Positions 17,666 to 24,518 of a DNA stretch of 64,000 nucleotides are shown here, piece by piece. The translations under genes and the position numbers were made by a program. Source of the stretch: Streptomyces sp. XD-27 (GTDB lineage: Bacteria > Actinomycetota > Actinomycetes > Streptomycetales > Streptomycetaceae); assembly GCF_030553055.1 (NCBI RefSeq), contig NZ_CP130713.1:6510001-6574000 (forward strand), in the 5' to 3' direction. Every line of letters begins with the position of its first letter. Positions within the stretch are counted from its first letter, which is position 1. The notes below the pieces were generated by a model. That model made no database searches, was not told where the DNA came from, and saw nothing but the letters and a program-made list of their open reading frames with translations.

Positions 17666-17716
17666 TCCTCAGACGTCCCTTCCTCAGACGTCTCCTCAGA
17701 CGTCTCCTCAGACGTC
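17666..17716. repeat. four copies of a 12-bp unit at the 3' end of the SsgA-like gene
   Basis: TCCTCAGACGTC starts at 17666, 17681, 17693 and 17705. The last copy contains the stop codon of the minus-strand SsgA-like gene (coding for the final Asp-Val-stop); the others lie beyond the stop. Each unit contains the palindrome GACGTC. Confidence 0.9.
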
Positions 17717-18121
17717 CCGCAGCAGCGTGGCCAGATCGTCGTCCAGGGCCATGTACCCGCCCTCGTCGCCCTCGGTGACCACCTCGTATGAGCGCTCCAG
17801 GAAGCGCCGCAGATCGGCGGTGCGGAACTGGACCAGCGCGATGCCCTCGGGAGCGTGGAACTCCAGGATCGTCCGCTCCCCGTCGCACGGCCACACCTGC
17901 ACGTCGCCGTTGCCCGCCGGGCCGCGCAGCCCGGCGGCGAGCAGCTCGCGGCCGAACGTCCACTGCACCTCCGAACCGTCCAGGGAGGCGGCCGGGGGGA
18001 AGCCCACGTGGACGGCGAACGGATCCGTACGCGTGTAGCGGAGAGTCGCAGGGATGGCGCGGGCCTCCGGCGTGGACGCGATGAGGCGTGCCTGGACGGC
18101 TTGGTCGATGACGGTGGACAT
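17708..18121 (-). CDS. SsgA-like sporulation/cell-division regulator (SALP)
   Basis: A 137-residue protein with the SALP pattern: RLIASTPEARAIPATLRYTRTDPFAVHVGFP, then VQWTFGRELLAAGL and DVQVWPCDGERTILEF, ending in an acidic GGYMALDDDLATLLRDV. SALPs occur only in morphologically complex actinomycetes and steer septum site selection, wall remodelling and spore maturation. The exact paralogue (SsgA to SsgG) cannot be assigned. Start ATG 18121 has GGGAG 8 bases upstream. A perfect 16-bp palindrome matching a Crp-type site lies about 90 bases upstream. Confidence 0.88.
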   Translation of the reverse strand: MSTVIDQAVQARLIASTPEARAIPATLRYTRTDPFAVHVGFPPAASLDGSEVQWTFGRELLAAGLRGPAGNGDVQVWPCDGERTILEFHAPEGIALVQFRTADLRRFLERSYEVVTEGDEGGYMALDDDLATLLRDV

Positions 18122-18753: not shown

Positions 18754-19926
18754 ATGAGGGGCATGGGGAAGCTGATACGAGTGGTGTCCACTGGGCTGTT
18801 CGGGGCGGCGTTGACGGCAGCCATCGGCATACCGGCGCATGCCGGACCGGGGCAGGGCGGATCGGGGCATGCCGGACCGGCGCAGGGCGGATCGGCGCAG
18901 GGGGGATCCGCCCGGGCCGAGACCGTACCGGGGCAACTGCCGCACGCCGGATGGCGGCTCAAGGACACCGGAACCGACGCCCGCTTCCGCGGGCTGGCGG
19001 CCGTCAGCCGGGACACGGCCTGGCTCGCGGGCTCCAAGGGCACCGTCCTGCGCACCACCGACGGCGGCCGCAGCTGGCGGGACGTCTCCCCGCCGGGCGC
19101 GGGCGAGCTGGAGTTCCGCGACGTCGAGGCGTTCGGCGCCCGGCGGGCGGTCGTCCTGGCGATCGGCGAGGGCGAGGCGTCCCGCGTGCTCCGTACGGAA
19201 GACGGCGGCGCCACCTGGACGGAGAGCTTCCGCAACACCGACGCGCGCGCCTTCTACGACTGCATGACGTTCTTCGACTCCCGGCACGGCATCGCGCTCA
19301 GCGACCCCGTGGACGGGAAGTACCGCATCCTGTCCACGGGGGACGGCGGCCGCAGCTGGCGGGTGCTGCCCTCGGACGGGATGCCCGCCGCCCAGCCGGG
19401 CGAGGCGGCGTTCGCCGCCAGCGGCCAGTGCCTGGTCAGCTCGGGCGGGCGGCACGCGTGGCTCGCCACCGGCGGCGCGGCCACCTCCCGGGTGCTGCAC
19501 TCCGCCGACCGGGGCCGCACCTGGTCGGCGACGGACACGCCCGTCCCGGCCGGCGACCCGGCGCGCGGCGTCTTCGCGCTCGCCTTCCGCGACTCCCGGC
19601 ACGGCCTCGCGGTCGGAGGCGACTACCGCGCCGGACAGCCCTCGCCGCGGGCCGCCGCCGTCTCCCGCGACGGCGGCGCCACCTGGACGGCGGCCGGGCA
19701 GCCGCCGCCCGCCTACCGGTCGGGGGCGGCCTGGCTGCCGCACACCGTCTCCGCCGCGCTCGCCGTCGGCCCCACCGGCACCGACCTCACGACCGACGCC
19801 GGCCGCAGCTGGCACACGCTCGACGACGGCTCGTACGACACGGTCGACTGCGCGCCGGACCTGGGCTGCTGGGCAGCGGGCGAACGCGGGCGCGCGGCGC
19901 GCCTGGAGTTCCAGCTAGTGCCGTGA
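18754..19926 (+). CDS. secreted BNR/Ycf48-like beta-propeller protein
   Basis: ATG 18754 yields a signal peptide (LFGAALTAAIGIPAHAGPGQ), a Gly/Gln/Ser-rich repeat linker and about seven propeller blades. Several carry the BNR Asp-box pattern SxDGGxxW, for example TTDGGRSWRDV, TEDGGATWTES, STGDGGRSWRV, SADRGRTWSA and TTDAGRSWHTL. Such proteins are called oxidoreductases or sialidase-like in actinomycetes, without known activity. The last codons and the TGA stop (19924-19926) lie inside the terminal inverted repeat of the neighbouring cassette, so insertion may have replaced the native C-terminus. Confidence 0.82.
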   Translation: MRGMGKLIRVVSTGLFGAALTAAIGIPAHAGPGQGGSGHAGPAQGGSAQGGSARAETVPGQLPHAGWRLKDTGTDARFRGLAAVSRDTAWLAGSKGTVLRTTDGGRSWRDVSPPGAGELEFRDVEAFGARRAVVLAIGEGEASRVLRTEDGGATWTESFRNTDARAFYDCMTFFDSRHGIALSDPVDGKYRILSTGDGGRSWRVLPSDGMPAAQPGEAAFAASGQCLVSSGGRHAWLATGGAATSRVLHSADRGRTWSATDTPVPAGDPARGVFALAFRDSRHGLAVGGDYRAGQPSPRAAAVSRDGGATWTAAGQPPPAYRSGAAWLPHTVSAALAVGPTGTDLTTDAGRSWHTLDDGSYDTVDCAPDLGCWAAGERGRAARLEFQLVP

Positions 19927-20776
19927 CCGGAAACGATCACCGGAGTGGTGTGACGGCCGGGCGGCCGCAGCGGTGGTGTCACGCAGGTCAACAATGTCGC
20001 GCCAGTGCCTGTCAGTTCCCCGGTCTAGGGTCGCCCGCATGGCCGAGCCCTCCTTTCTGACCGCCGTGCGTGAGTCGTACGACACGGTTGCCGTCGACTA
20101 CGTCGAACGCGTCCCGCCTCCAGCCGAGATGGACCCGCTGTCACGCGCGATGCTGGCGGGGTTCGCCGAACTCGTGCGGACGGCCGGTCTGGGGCCGGTC
20201 GCGGACCTGGGATGCGGCCCCGGCCGCGTGACGGCGCACCTGGCTGGGATGGGGGTGTCCGCCTTCGGCGTCGATCTGTCACCGAAGATGATCGGGCTGG
20301 CCCGCCACGCCTATCCGAACCTGCGGTTCACCGAGGGCTCGATGACCTCGCTGGAGATGGGGGACGACGAGCTCGGCGGCATCCTGGCCTGGTACTCCAC
20401 GCACCACACGCCCCCGCAGTGGCTGCCGGCGGTGTTCGCCGAGTTCCACCGCACGCTCGCGCCCGGCGGCTACCTGCTCTGGGGAGACTATGTCGGCGAT
20501 GAACGGCTGCATCCGACCCAGGGCTATGGCCGTCCGGTGTCCTACGAGTCGTACCTTCTGCCCCTGGACCGCATAGTCGGCCTGCTGGACCAGGCCGGAC
20601 TCGTTGTCACCGCGAGACTGGAGCAGGAGCCCGGCGGACGGGTGAGGAGACCGCGCGCCTGCCTCCTGGCCCGCAAGCCCGAAACACCCTGACGGGGCTT
20701 GTTCCTGCGGCGAGGCCGCTCGTGCCAGAACGCAGACGATCACGAGGCGGGCGTTGATCGTTTCCGGTCACGGCAC
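19918..20776. mobile_element. putative transposase-less insertion cassette carrying a methyltransferase
   Basis: A 23-bp sequence beginning AGTGCCGTGACCGGAAACGA at 19917 recurs as an exact reverse complement at 20755-20777. The pair frames one complete gene (methyltransferase) in about 860 bp. The ends share the pattern AGTGCTGTGACCG with the termini of the IS630-family element at 22902-24152. The left end is preceded by TA, the IS630 target; at the right the matching position reads TG. There is no transposase inside, so movement would need one in trans. The mobile interpretation is inferred from structure. Confidence 0.65.
20039..20692 (+). CDS. class I SAM-dependent methyltransferase
   Basis: A 217-residue Rossmann-fold methyltransferase with SAM-binding motif I VADLGCGPGRVTAHL, motif II GVDLSPKMIGLAR, then a post-II region with EGSMTSLEM and HRTLAPGGYLLW. 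The acceptor cannot be named. The gene fills the space between the two 23-bp inverted repeats and so looks like cassette cargo. Start ATG 20039 has TAGGG upstream. Similar stand-alone methyltransferases are common in Streptomyces and may act on small molecules. Confidence 0.85.
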   Translation: MAEPSFLTAVRESYDTVAVDYVERVPPPAEMDPLSRAMLAGFAELVRTAGLGPVADLGCGPGRVTAHLAGMGVSAFGVDLSPKMIGLARHAYPNLRFTEGSMTSLEMGDDELGGILAWYSTHHTPPQWLPAVFAEFHRTLAPGGYLLWGDYVGDERLHPTQGYGRPVSYESYLLPLDRIVGLLDQAGLVVTARLEQEPGGRVRRPRACLLARKPETP

Positions 20777-20936
20777 TGGCAAAGAGGCTGTTGTAGGCGC
20801 ACACCTTCGGTCGGCGGATCTCGACGCGGTGGCGGCGCGCTCATTGGTGCGGTGTTCCAGTGGCAGCTCACTCCAGGGCAGCTTTGTCAGTACTGACGAC
20901 CTGTCCCATCGAGAGCCGGTGGGACACCCCCTCCGG

Positions 20937-21466
20937 CTACTCGCCGGTGACGCCGTCGGCAAGCTCCCGGACGATGTCGAGGTGCCCGACATGCCGCGCG
21001 TACTCCTGGAGCAAATGGAACAGCACCCAGATCAGCGTTGGCCGCTCTTCCTCGGGCGGGACCCGGCCCCCAGAGTGGCCATCCGGTCCTCCAGTCGCGC
21101 GCCGGCGACGATCGCGCGGGACCGCTCGCACTGGGCACGGAAGAACGCCGTCACATCCTCGACGGTCTCATCCGGCTCGACACACCATCTGCCGCCACGG
21201 GCTTCCATATCGCCCCACGGCTGTTCGACCTGCTGGCCGGCGAAGCCCCACTGCAGCCAGCGCAGCTCCACATAGGCCAGATGCTTCAGCAGCTCCAGTG
21301 GCGCCCAGCCGGATGGCAGCCGACTGCCCCGCAGCTCCTCGTCGGTCAGGCCGTCCAGCTTGCGCAGCACGGCGTCACGGTAGAAATCCAGATAGCCCGC
21401 CAACAACTCGGCCGGGCTGGTGAGCGTGACATCGGGCTCCGCCGGGGGCTCGGCTTCAGCAGTCAT
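20937..21466 (-). pseudogene. DinB/DUF664-family protein, frameshifted
   Basis: The frame from ATG 21466 (MTAEAEPPAEP) carries the DinB-like four-helix start LLAGYLDFYRDAVLRKLDGL and the metal-site region LELLKHLAYVELRWLQ, then drifts after MATLGAG and stops at 21032. The true continuation, VPPEEERPTLIWVLFHLL then EYARHVGHLDIVRELADG, is in another frame and ends at 20937. One missing G in the five-G run at 21070-21074 (read on the minus strand) explains it. Intact relatives are metal-binding or mycothiol-linked S-transferase-like proteins. The break may be a mutation or a sequencing error. Confidence 0.78.
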
Positions 21467-21800
21467 GGCAGGTGATGTTAAGCGGAGACCCACAGGCACG
21501 CCACGCGCTCACAGCAAAGCGTCCTGCCCGTCGACTGCCCGGTCAACGGTGCGAGCCGGGCCACTAGTGCTGTGACCGGGAACGTTCGCCGGGTTGCTCG
21601 TTGTGCTGGTTGGAGGTGACGACACCTCCAACCAGCGGGGGGAGGCGGGATGGCGCCGCCGGTCAGGGTCCGAAGGCTGCCGGGTGGCGTTGGGTCAGGT
21701 GCTCTCGGCGGTCACCGACACCTGCGGGATGGCCGTCGTGCTGGCCCGCCTTCCGTACAACCGGCGCTGACCGCGACCACCCATGACAAGTTCCCGGGTG
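21467..21800. other. intergenic region with an orphan IS630-type end and a strong hairpin
   Basis: Between the DinB gene and the oxidoreductase there is no credible gene. From 21567 the sequence GTGCTGTGACCGGGAACG and the following TTCGCCGGGTT match the termini of the nearby IS element and cassette, and it is preceded by TA. No partner end is visible. At 21605-21636 GCTGGTTGGAGGTG and CACCTCCAACCAGC form a perfect 14-bp stem with loop ACGA. This looks like the relic of a deleted or very small element. Confidence 0.7.
21605..21636. terminator. perfect 14-bp hairpin, terminator-like or element-internal
   Basis: The arms 21605-21618 and 21623-21636 are exact reverse complements with a 4-base loop. 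There is no T-run after it. It lies 5 bases inside the orphan IS630-type end, so it could be a structural part of a small mobile element rather than a terminator. Confidence 0.5.
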
Positions 21801-22739
21801 TCAGGGCACGAGCACGATCTTGCCGCGCACTCGGCCGCTCTCACTCAGCTCGTGGGCCTTGGCGGCCTCGGTCAGAGGCAGCGTCTCCTCTACGGACGGG
21901 CGTACCCCAGCGCGGTCCACCAGGTCGGCGAAACCGGCCAAGTCGGCCGGGGTCGGTTCGAGGTAGTACTCGAGGAACCGCACGCCGTTCGCCTGTGCCT
22001 GCTCCGTCACGGCCGTCCGGTCGACCCCGACGCCCACAACGTCGATGAGGATGCCGCCGCGCTTGAGCGTACGCAGCGACCTCGGCCCATACTCCTTGCT
22101 GATCGTGTCGATCACCACGTCCACGTCACGCAGGCTCGTGAAGTCGGCCGTCGTGTAGTCGATGAGTTCGTCCGCGCCGAGCTCGCGCAGGAAGGCGTGC
22201 TTGGCCGTCCGGGCCGTGCCGATCACGTACGCCCCGCGCGCCTTGGCGATCTGGACGGCGAAATGTCCCACGCCGCCCGCCGCCGCGTGCACCAGAACGC
22301 GCTGACCGGGCTGCACCTGGGCGATGTTCACCAAGGTCTGGTAGGCGGTCAGGCCCGCGATGCCCAGTGCCGCCGCGTGCACGTGATCGAGGGTGGTGGG
22401 TTTGGCGGCTATGGAGGTCTCGGGTACGAGCACGTAGTCGGCGTGGCTGCCGCGCGGCGGGGTCACCCATCCGAACACTTCGTCACCGGGCCGGAAGCCG
22501 CTCCCTCCTTCACCGATCTCGTCCACCACTCCGCTGAACTCGTGTCCCAGGACGAAGGGCGGCTCGCCGAACCACTGCACATGCCCCGCGCGGACTTTCC
22601 AGTCCGCTGGGTTGATGCCTGTGGCATGCACGCGCACGAGAACCTCACCGGGCGCGGGGCTGGGCCGGTCGGCCTCCGCAACTTCGAGAACTTCCGGACC
22701 GCCAAAGGAAAGCTGCTTGATCACTCGCATGTGATCCAT
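21801..22739 (-). CDS. NADP-dependent quinone-oxidoreductase-type enzyme (MDR family)
   Basis: A zinc-independent medium-chain reductase of about 312 residues. The N-terminal GroES-like half has SFGGPEVLEV and VHATGINPADWKVRAG, and the cofactor domain has LVHAAAGGVGHFAVQIAKARG (AxxGVG), ending in SESGRVRGKIVLVP. Such enzymes reduce quinones or enones with NADPH. ATG 22739 (MDHMRVIKQ) and ATG 22730 are both possible starts; family alignments favour the region of the second. The gene lies between the orphan IS end and the IS630 element and may belong to the accessory patch. Confidence 0.85.
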   Translation of the reverse strand: MDHMRVIKQLSFGGPEVLEVAEADRPSPAPGEVLVRVHATGINPADWKVRAGHVQWFGEPPFVLGHEFSGVVDEIGEGGSGFRPGDEVFGWVTPPRGSHADYVLVPETSIAAKPTTLDHVHAAALGIAGLTAYQTLVNIAQVQPGQRVLVHAAAGGVGHFAVQIAKARGAYVIGTARTAKHAFLRELGADELIDYTTADFTSLRDVDVVIDTISKEYGPRSLRTLKRGGILIDVVGVGVDRTAVTEQAQANGVRFLEYYLEPTPADLAGFADLVDRAGVRPSVEETLPLTEAAKAHELSESGRVRGKIVLVP

Positions 22740-22901
22740 TCTCAACGAACGCCATCGATTGCAAAGCAGGCCCCCCACGAAAGCAGGTACCCGACCGTCG
22801 AGGACCGCCGTGAGTGGCGGCCGTGGGACGACAGCCGGGGCCGACGACCCGCAGGGCGACGGGAGACCGCCGCAGAACCGGGCGAGGTCGGCCGGCCGCT
22901 A

Positions 22902-24152
22902 GTTCTGTGACCGCCTCGGTTCGCCAGGTTGGTGGGTCATGTCGCGTCGGAGAGGGGGCGTCCGCCCCAGCGGATGCCCTTCTCGCTGCGGATGCGGGCG
23001 CGTTCACGTCGTTGGGCGGCCAGGACCTCGGGGTGGCGGGTGTGGGTGTTGCGCCAGCGCAGGTAGCGGTGCAGTTCACGGGTCTGGACGGTGTGGTTGG
23101 GGTGGTGGGAGTTGGCGAGGGTGAACTGCCGCAGCGGTCCGAAGTGCGCTTCGACCGGATTGGCCCAGGAGGCGTTGGTGGGGGTGAAGCACAGCTCGAC
23201 ACGGTGCTTCTTCGCCCAGGCGCGGATCTTGGTGCCTTTGTGGGCGGAGAGGTTGTCCATGATCACGTAGATCGGGGCGCCGTCCGGGCGGGCGGCGCGG
23301 ATCGACTTGAGCGCGGTCAGGGAGTTCACCGCGCCCTTGCGGCGGTGGTTGACGCCCCACACGGTGTCGTCGCCGACCGAGTAGCAGCCGTGAAAGTAGG
23401 TGACGCCGTGGGTGCGGTGGTAGGTCGCCGGGACCCGGTCGGGCCGGCCCGGCTTCGCCCAGCAGGACCCGCCGGTGGGACGGATGCCCAGCGGCCCGAA
23501 CTCGTCGAATGCGAAAACCCGGTCCGGTAAATGGTCCAGGACGTGCTCGATCCGGTCGAGCTTGGCGTCCCGCTGGGGGTCGGTGGACTCCTTCCACGTC
23601 TTGGTGCGCTGGAAGGTGACGCCGCGGCGGGCAAGCAGACAGCGCAGAGCCTCACGCCCGATCCGGATCGTCCGGCCGTGGACCTTGCACAGATAGGCGG
23701 CGAGTTTGCGGATCGACCAGCGGGTGAAGAGCTGGCCGAGCTTGGTCGGGCGGGTGACGGCCGTCGCCACGACGAAGTCCTCGTCGTCAGTGCTCAGCAG
23801 GCGGGGACGGCCTCCCGCCCACCGAGGGCCCAGGCAGCCAAGCCCGATCTCGTTGAACCGGTGGATCACGTCGCGCACCGTGTCCTCGTCAGCCGCCACC
23901 AACTGGCCGATGACCGGCACCCGGTTCCCACCGGCCGACGCCAGCATCATCGCCCGCCGGTACCGCACCGCGCTGGTACTGCCCCGCCGCACGATCTGCT
24001 GCAGCTCCTGACCCTCTTGATCAGTCAGACGGCGCACTTTGACCGGTACCGCCACCACGCCTCCACACGCTCGATGGGATGTCAGCCCCCCATCCAACCG
24101 GCCCCAGCCTCAGCGGGTGCCCGAACCCGGCGAACCAATGTGGTCAGAGCAC
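22902..24152. mobile_element. complete IS630-family insertion sequence (1251 bp)
   Basis: The element is bounded by imperfect inverted repeats of about 33 bp: left GTTCTGTGACCGCCTCGG from 22902 and, reading inward from 24152, GTGCTCTGACCACATTGG, each followed by a TTCGCC-GGTT block. TA flanks both sides (22900-22901 and 24153-24154), as expected from the TA target duplication of the IS630/Tc1 group. The single transposase gene is intact, so the copy may be active. Confidence 0.85.
22937..24055 (-). CDS. IS630-family DDE transposase
   Basis: A 372-residue transposase with an N-terminal helix-turn-helix region (VIGQLVAADEDTVRDVIHRF) and a winged-helix linker. The catalytic triad is Asp in FAFDEFGPLG, Asp in YVIMDNLSAHKG and Glu in NPVEAHFGPLRQF. 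GTG 24055 is chosen because GGAGG sits 7 bases upstream; GTG 24058 is an alternative, and the frame is open farther upstream. A TTA codon (23530-23528) in a genome where TTA is very rare means full expression may need the bldA leucyl-tRNA, tying transposition to development. Confidence 0.9.
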   Translation of the reverse strand: MAVPVKVRRLTDQEGQELQQIVRRGSTSAVRYRRAMMLASAGGNRVPVIGQLVAADEDTVRDVIHRFNEIGLGCLGPRWAGGRPRLLSTDDEDFVVATAVTRPTKLGQLFTRWSIRKLAAYLCKVHGRTIRIGREALRCLLARRGVTFQRTKTWKESTDPQRDAKLDRIEHVLDHLPDRVFAFDEFGPLGIRPTGGSCWAKPGRPDRVPATYHRTHGVTYFHGCYSVGDDTVWGVNHRRKGAVNSLTALKSIRAARPDGAPIYVIMDNLSAHKGTKIRAWAKKHRVELCFTPTNASWANPVEAHFGPLRQFTLANSHHPNHTVQTRELHRYLRWRNTHTRHPEVLAAQRRERARIRSEKGIRWGGRPLSDAT

Positions 24153-24218
24153 TAGCCGCCGCCGCACTGACGGGCCTGGGGCACCTCCCGAACGGAGTCC
24201 GAGGCCCGCCCGAGGACG

Positions 24219-24518
24219 CTACGCCGGCAGCTGCTCCCGGTAGTCGGCCAGCCCGGGCGCCGTCTTGGTCGCGATGAACTCCGTGATGCGGTACGCGCAG
24301 ACGCCCGCCACCGTGAACGGGTCCGACGCCGCGATCCTCTCGATCGCGGCGCGGTCCTCGGCCACCGCGAGGATCACCCCGCCGTCACGCGGCTGCTTGC
24401 GCCCGGAAGCGAGGACGACGCCCGCGGCGTACTGCTCGTCCAGCCAGGCGACGTGCTCTTCGAGCAGAGCGTCGACGCGCTCCATCGGGGCGGTGTAGGT
24501 CAGCTCAAGTACGAACAT
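24219..24518 (-). CDS. YciI-like family protein
   Basis: A 99-residue protein with the YciI ferredoxin-like fold pattern: MFVLELTYTAPMERVDAL, then HVAWLDEQYAAGVVLASGRKQP with the conserved His-Asp pair, and AASDPFTVAGVCAYRITEF. The family is small and cytoplasmic, sometimes enzymatic or a dehydrochlorinase-like domain, but most members lack a known role. It is divergent from the endonuclease V gene with 35 bases between starts. Confidence 0.85.
   Translation of the reverse strand: MFVLELTYTAPMERVDALLEEHVAWLDEQYAAGVVLASGRKQPRDGGVILAVAEDRAAIERIAASDPFTVAGVCAYRITEFIATKTAPGLADYREQLPA

Follow-up and report, generated by a model that had tools for sequence, protein, structure and literature searches.

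Integron gene cassettes are single-gene cargo with a repertoire rich in resistance-like enzymes, and IS630 itself has a preference for CTAG. The elements described here resemble integron cassettes in their single-gene, resistance-like-rich repertoire, and differ from them in that each gene has its own transposon ends. In kind, the cassette that is our subject is known from the transporter IS (tIS), an insertion sequence with passenger genes (PMC3129680, PMC9330008), and from the mobile insertion cassette (MIC), exemplified by the qnrS2 cassette of pAC3 with its 22-bp repeats (PMC5444012). Like tIS, the parent elements considered below have one transposase, two ends and a passenger unrelated to transposition, whereas the passages on tIS in PMC3129680 and PMC9330008 name no passenger-bearing IS630, and here 60/65 sampled elements of one IS630 lineage have passengers. 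Like the MIC of pAC3, the cassette is a coding unit between IS-type inverted repeats, lacks a transposase and is attributed to internal deletion, but its ends are of the IS630 type, its target is CTAG/TA, its cargo is a methyltransferase (MT), and there are parent elements that bear the same cargo. ISY100 and other IS630/Tc1 elements (PMC2170065, PMC6400869) belong to the same superfamily and share terminal repeats and a TA preference, but unlike them, the elements here carry passenger genes. Among the titles and abstract openings listed for the open-licence PMC literature searched, none concerns a cargo-carrying IS630 in Streptomyces, and an IS630 version of such a cassette did not appear in that material.

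The methyltransferase cassette and its ends

In the 64,000-nucleotide stretch of Streptomyces sp. XD-27 DNA analyzed here (hereafter the window), an arm of sequence AGTGCCGTGACCGGAAACGATCA at 19917–19939 (+ strand) and its reverse complement at 20755–20777 (− strand) are identical at 23/23 positions, and the 29-nt arms are 93% complementary. They enclose one complete MT ORF at 20039–20692 (+) in a cassette of 861 bp with no transposase inside. An earlier note on this DNA had described perfect 23-bp inverted repeats around one complete gene and had proposed a transposase-less, IS630-type cassette with MT cargo, and both descriptions are borne out. With a coding sequence between IS ends and no transposase, the cassette can be classed, judging by its layout, as a MIC. 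We consider it very probable that it is a transposase-deleted derivative of a passenger-carrying tIS from a Streptomyces IS630-family lineage.

By a rough, uniform-composition estimate, about 0.0002 exact 23-bp inverted pairs would be expected by chance in 64 kb. The string AGTGCYGTGACCGG occurs three times without mismatch in the 7.55-Mb genome, each time within the window (19917 on the plus strand, 20764–20777 on the minus strand and 21566 on the plus strand); with one mismatch allowed, the whole-genome totals are not above the background control. A solo end at 21566 matches the left 27 bases of the cassette at 23/27 positions, and the ends of an intact IS630 nearby match them at 17/27 (left) and 18/27 (right), or at 11/13 and 10/13, respectively, over the first 13 bases. 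Together, the exact arms, the genome-wide counts, the composition estimate and the end comparison rule out a chance origin of the repeats. The claim that the cassette ends match the termini of the intact IS630 survives as a partial likeness, at 17/27 and 18/27 positions, and not as identity, and by its ends the nearby IS630 falls into a different sub-lineage instead of being of the same type.

The left terminal inverted repeat (19917–19939, +), with element-type similarity to ~19943, adjoins the insertion target CTAG at 19915–19918, which contains TA at 19916–19917 and also forms the left side of the larger island described below. The right terminal inverted repeat (20755–20777, −) is followed by TG, not TA. 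Since the left junction is CTAG and the right junction CTGG, the TA duplication of the cassette is imperfect (TA/TG). The right repeat is also shortened within its inner part, to 23–25 bp versus about 33 typical of the family. Between the MT gene and the site of the lost transposase, a putative relic of an old IS630 end lies at 20722–20743 (+), with 0/2000 shuffles scoring as high. One copy of the cassette is present in this genome. On its left lies a YCF48/BNR-repeat-like host gene (18754–19926, +), whose final codons and stop (CTA GTG CCG TGA) come from the inserted end. This host gene has 15-bp tandem repeats near its start (window 18831–18920), and many of its relatives are alignable only from about residue 53–67 onward. 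Further upstream, four copies of the short tandem repeat TCCTCAGACGTC (window 17666–17721) stand where a small ORF on the minus strand ends.

The passenger gene encodes a 217-aa class I SAM-dependent methyltransferase (Methyltransf_25, E 2e-19), with a Rossmann-like fold and SAM motif I. Its fold neighbors are many different methyltransferases, and none of its 19 NCBIfam matches, all far below their cut-offs, provides a named function. It can be likened to Cg3271, a class I SAM methyltransferase of Corynebacterium glutamicum (PDB 3h2b). A scan of the cassette for a sigma-70 promoter and a terminator found none. Ahead of the ATG stands TCTAGGGTCGCCCGC (20024–20038, +), of which the exact string TAGGGTCG is kept in 36/46 copies of the gene; we take it, by analogy with actinobacterial promoters, to be the promoter-like −10 of a leaderless transcript.

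Relatives of the methyltransferase gene

Relatives of the MT came from two sources: genome contigs, of whose 217 confirmed loci the best 80 were taken, and 295 Streptomyces genomes, which added 30 further loci, the window's own included, and each of which (295/295) has a relative at E ≤ 0.001. After removal of nine duplicates (sequences that appear under two handles, and the second copy, L028), 46 distinct loci remained for comparison, all with ≥84% nucleotide identity and the window among them. In many of them, homology to the window ends near −125, at the repeat. The left end is recognizable in 20/46 loci (weakly in L009) and the right end in 8/46; the reversed pattern, used as a control, gave 3 hits in 89.6 kb. 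In 18/46 loci, IS630 transposase pieces in the opposite direction lie ~70 bp past the MT stop, and any trace of an end or transposase is found in 27/46. Six loci have both ends (L003, L012, L017, L019 with a weak right end, L053 and the window): no transposase lies between them in L003, L012, L019 (weak) and the window, and in L017 they enclose a short transposase piece. L053 is near full length (1.98 kb, −125 to +1859 from the MT start), has CTAG at each end, and holds the MT, the transposase and both ends, with both genes frameshifted. None of the 46 loci has an intact transposase, as the longest single alignment covers 317/372 residues (the L007 sequence ends early).

As compared across these relatives, the same MT adjoins an IS630 transposase that converges on it, and the same ends enclose both. 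Because the MT stands beside a decayed transposase in the relatives and L053 keeps all the parts, we interpret the cassette as the remnant of a passenger IS630 from which the transposase was deleted. The relatives indicate that the cassette most likely came from an MT-carrying IS630 with its own transposase. Elements of this parental type, with passenger and transposase inside the ends (60/65 elements in the sample below, and L053 for the MT form), can themselves be classed as tIS. The parent would have been an IS630 whose transposase was separated from one end by a passenger gene, the passenger having been captured once the element used an end beyond its own old one, which would survive as an inner relic in some elements. 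An internal deletion at the present locus would then have taken away the transposase together with a portion of the right repeat. The MT may have been retained since it is helpful to the host, probably via small-molecule methylation, and a related transposase could still move the cassette in trans.

The MT genes themselves are intact in 40/46 loci by a fixed rule (ATG, GTG or TTG start, 205–235 aa); L016 (237 aa) and L031 (GTG one base on) bring the number of open frames to 42, and four frames are broken (L034, L036, L053 and L066). Across the 780 pairs of the 40 intact genes, counting those pairs with dS > 0.05, dN/dS has a median of 0.29, which indicates purifying selection, and a maximum of 0.67. 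Nineteen of the 46 loci have no end or transposase trace, one of which, L015, has a relic end. In the MT tree, in which 22 of the 43 inner branches are open, trace-less and IS-linked copies are intermixed (10 label changes, with 23/500 shuffles as low). With labels mixed in this way, a restriction of the MT to IS-linked copies is unsupported. Given the 19/46 trace-less loci and their mixing with IS-linked copies, an older, non-IS origin is possible for part of the family. MT relatives of 50–75% identity are widespread, some in conserved synteny, as might be expected if the MT were an ordinary chromosomal gene and the repeats were due to chance or unrelated; we give this reading next to no credence, as it is opposed by the exact 23-bp arms, by a left end common to 20/46 copies, by the different places in which the copies lie, and by transposase fragments at a fixed distance from the MT.

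By flank comparison, the MT copies occupy unrelated neighborhoods. Anything in common is seen in 2/990 pairs of upstream flanks (45 of the 46 loci) and in 2/946 pairs of downstream flanks (44 of the 46). One pair, L001/L083, has ~110–130 bp of flank in common on each side and may represent a single insertion; the remaining pairs, L012/L031 upstream and L003/L011 downstream, show 68–72% matches. A conserved syntenic MT, which the earlier note had named as the finding that would speak against mobility, is ruled out by the unrelated flanks in 988/990 and 944/946 pairs. The nearest copy, L082 in genome G254, has 97.5% identity over the 845 bp that run inward from the end, whereas the host segment 0.45–1.1 kb past the island is 77% identical to the same genome, and this difference points to horizontal transfer. 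The host segment is 74–77% identical for G234, G144, G191 and G159, and the MT elements there (L083–L086) are 91–92% identical where aligned. A further MT copy, of 88% amino-acid identity, is located on a linear plasmid of S. akebiae, with no recognizable ends found around it. Duplicate MT copies occur in G254, with equal score at 370450 and 11169733, close to the ends of the chromosome and in opposite orientations, and in another genome (L027/L028), near the ends of two contigs; these are consistent with the terminal inverted repeats of linear chromosomes.

The 4.24-kb island

The cassette is part of an island at 19916–24154 (4.24 kb) that is absent from relatives. Past the cassette, the island contains a DinB/mycothiol-S-transferase-like gene (21032–21466, −), a second, truncated IS630 (21564–21679, +), a zinc-type NAD(P)H quinone oxidoreductase-like gene (21801–22730, −), and the intact IS630 (22899–24155, −). 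The truncated copy is the transposase-side end, ~115 bases with CTAG, the terminal repeat and the first transposase codons. The intact IS630 has its ends at 22901 and 24153, CTAG on both sides and its transposase at 22937–24055, and the quinone reductase gene, lying between it and the solo end, is a candidate for captured cargo. The transposase is of the IS630 DDE type (NF033545, 158.5 bits vs a cut-off of 100), with DDE-like motifs at 183, 265 and 299, which we take to be its catalytic residues. A second open IS630 transposase is present elsewhere in the genome.

The next host gene is YciI-like (named by eye; 24219–24518, −) and directly follows the YCF48-like gene in relatives with an empty site. 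These two genes are convergent neighbors within 600 bp in 14/29 relatives and 1.2 kb apart in 1/29; in the other 14/29, no YciI gene was seen within the 1.5 kb fetched. In six relatives, the joined window flanks can be aligned straight over the junction. The adjacency of the two genes and the alignment of the joined flanks indicate that the insertion is the whole block from TA 19916 to TA 24154. Empty sites, suggested in the earlier note as a check, thus exist in 14/29 relatives, but what is missing there is the whole island and not the 861-bp cassette alone. Four of the nine CTAG sites in the window are element junctions.

That the island entered CTAG in a single step, as one multi-cargo composite IS630 transposon with the MT, DinB-like and quinone reductase genes and the transposase, strikes us as doubtful. 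Its outermost ends face inward and both lie in CTAG, it is the part that relatives lack, and larger blocks with this repeat at their borders are known (L259, 5.3 kb; L260, 5.4 kb), but the ends within it (20777, 21566 and 22901) point to stepwise nesting, and the nearest relatives of the DinB and quinone reductase genes (L227, L242, L243) have no such ends around them. More distant DinB relatives do occur as cargo, in L152, where a gene of 43% identity lies inside IS630 ends, and probably in L258 (40% identity over 93 aa). Within the island, the ends at 21564 and 24155 form a pair 2,588 bp apart with CTAG on both sides, which encloses the quinone reductase gene and has the left end of the intact IS630 inside. 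An intermediate in cargo capture would be expected to have such an arrangement.

A cargo-carrying IS630 lineage

Matches to the window transposase at E ≤ 0.001, many of them distant, occur in 263/295 Streptomyces genomes. Our sample consists of 85 transposase loci (L111–L195): the 30 given by the search itself and 55 others, for which long coverage was the main ground of choice. In a strict two-ended test, for which reversed patterns gave 0 matches in 457 kb on both strands, 65/85 loci have both ends and 20 are unsettled. Of these 65 elements, 60 have cargo, usually one gene, and five are simple IS. The cargo lies on the 3′ side of the transposase in 46, on the same side with a relic inner end in eight (the intact IS630 of the window included), on the 5′ side in five, and on both sides in one. 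A looser test of the 74 loci with a left end yields 55 with cargo, five simple and 14 unsettled. Like boundaries around different cargo, which the earlier note had proposed to look for, are therefore found in 60/65 two-ended elements. Its remark that cargo-bearing units are rarely described has to be set beside the same count, as cargo is common in this sample.

Codon bias and length were used to pick 54 cargo ORFs, which form 42 clusters (L123, L133, L193 and L195 are doubtful genes), and 28 of the 40 cargo proteins scanned, the less sure L112, L115 and L123 among them, have Pfam matches at 1e-5. The labels are Pfam family names and thus predicted functions: alpha/beta hydrolases (L113, L124, L155, L186), LD-carboxypeptidase (L114), GNAT acetyltransferases (L116, L121, L131), inositol phosphatase (L122), other methyltransferases (L127, L166), glyoxalase (L129), SUKH and Imm51/Imm53 immunity proteins (L130, L135, L136, L177), DUF6368 (L139), NADAR (L146), the beta-lactamase family (L148, L185), OMP decarboxylase (L151), SDR (L160), AAA_33 (L163), aminoglycoside-2″-adenylyltransferase (ANT(2″); L165), APH (L172, L183), D-ala-D-ala dipeptidase (L178) and DinB/MDMPI (L194). 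Named plasmids have the same layout, for example in S. rutgersensis, where a transposase and a "class I SAM-dependent methyltransferase" lie between ends with 0 and 1 mismatches to the end pattern; the plasmid records examined are annotated as "IS630 family transposase" plus a neighboring gene.

TA is present at both ends in 52/55 cargo elements and CTAG in 48/55, as expected of TA insertion with duplication. Two pairs of copies within one genome, L151/L154 (99.8%) and L138/L143 (99.9%), have alignments that stop at the element ends, by which transposase and cargo appear to have moved as one unit. Across genomes, L127/L128, L139/L147 and L137/L138 are 95–98% identical, with homology ending together at the repeats. 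Comparison of these borders shows that transposase-plus-cargo units of this lineage entered CTAG, with TA duplication, as units. L151 and L154 each have one GGTTCGCC-type end and one cassette-type end, a hint that both types can be handled by a single transposase. The same pair bears on whether the cassette is actively mobilized in trans by the intact IS630 2.1 kb away. Movement in trans is plausible, given this pair twice in one genome at 99.8%, matched outer repeats on the cassette, and two open IS630 transposases, one of them in the window with DDE-like motifs and the other elsewhere in the genome. Active mobilization by this particular neighbor is nonetheless unlikely in our view, as the ends are alike at only 17–18/27 positions, the right TA is lost, and the cassette is a single copy for which neither a second site nor an empty site of its own is seen. 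The single copy also means that there is no direct sign of the 861-bp form itself jumping; this, the TG at the right junction and the short right repeat also weigh against the reading we prefer, a transposase-deleted remnant of an MT-carrying IS630.

How cargo entered such elements may be read from relic inner ends. The bases just past the transposase stop resemble an IS end (p<0.01) in 14/55 cargo elements, again 14/55 when the test was rerun with 400 shuffles for all, and the same test gives 0/55 in mid-cargo and 0/55 inside the transposase. In the MT family, relic inner ends are found in 6/46 loci, including that at 20722–20743 of the window. The simplest reading is that the cargo is flanked by an old end, which has become internal, and by a newer one on the outside; with no relic seen in 41/55 cargo elements and 40/46 MT loci, decay or another capture route is possible. 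Past the outer right repeat, L111 (the window) and L148 are the only elements whose likeness to the transposase-side end spans 90 bases; in seven of the other 53, it stops just beyond base 55. Capture always by way of a complete second IS copy is rejected as a general rule.

In a broader reading, for and against which we see about equal chances, Streptomyces and their relatives would host a cargo-capturing IS630 lineage that acts as a one-gene shuttle, an actinobacterial counterpart of integron cassettes: single genes would be captured by use of an end beyond the element's own, for instance that of a second, opposed IS copy as still visible at 21564–24155, spread among chromosomes and linear plasmids, and, where selected, outlast the transposase. 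If the gene neighboring the transposase is cargo, antibiotic producers would have detoxification, resistance-like and immunity genes that travel as individual transposons, and a simple end sequence would suffice to trace gene flow between strains and plasmids. Retention of the old inner end in some elements would make the capture step directly testable, and the many copies with a dead transposase and a live MT would be a natural experiment on cargo retained by selection.

Allowing ≤3 mismatches, the end pattern is found in 49/394 genomes of the class and 14/137 genera, with 0 control matches. There is a second transposase-less cassette, L256 (415 bp); the protein it encodes and the cargo of L263, an element with a transposase, share 62% identity over 108 aa. 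Blocks of 3.5–5.4 kb between such ends (L259, L260 and L261) contain several ORFs, their kinds judged by eye, and L257 (198 bp) has both ends and no clear gene, as in a MITE. Genome G173 has 65 end-pattern matches, of which several of the ten listed are one variant ending in CACCGTG, an apparent burst.
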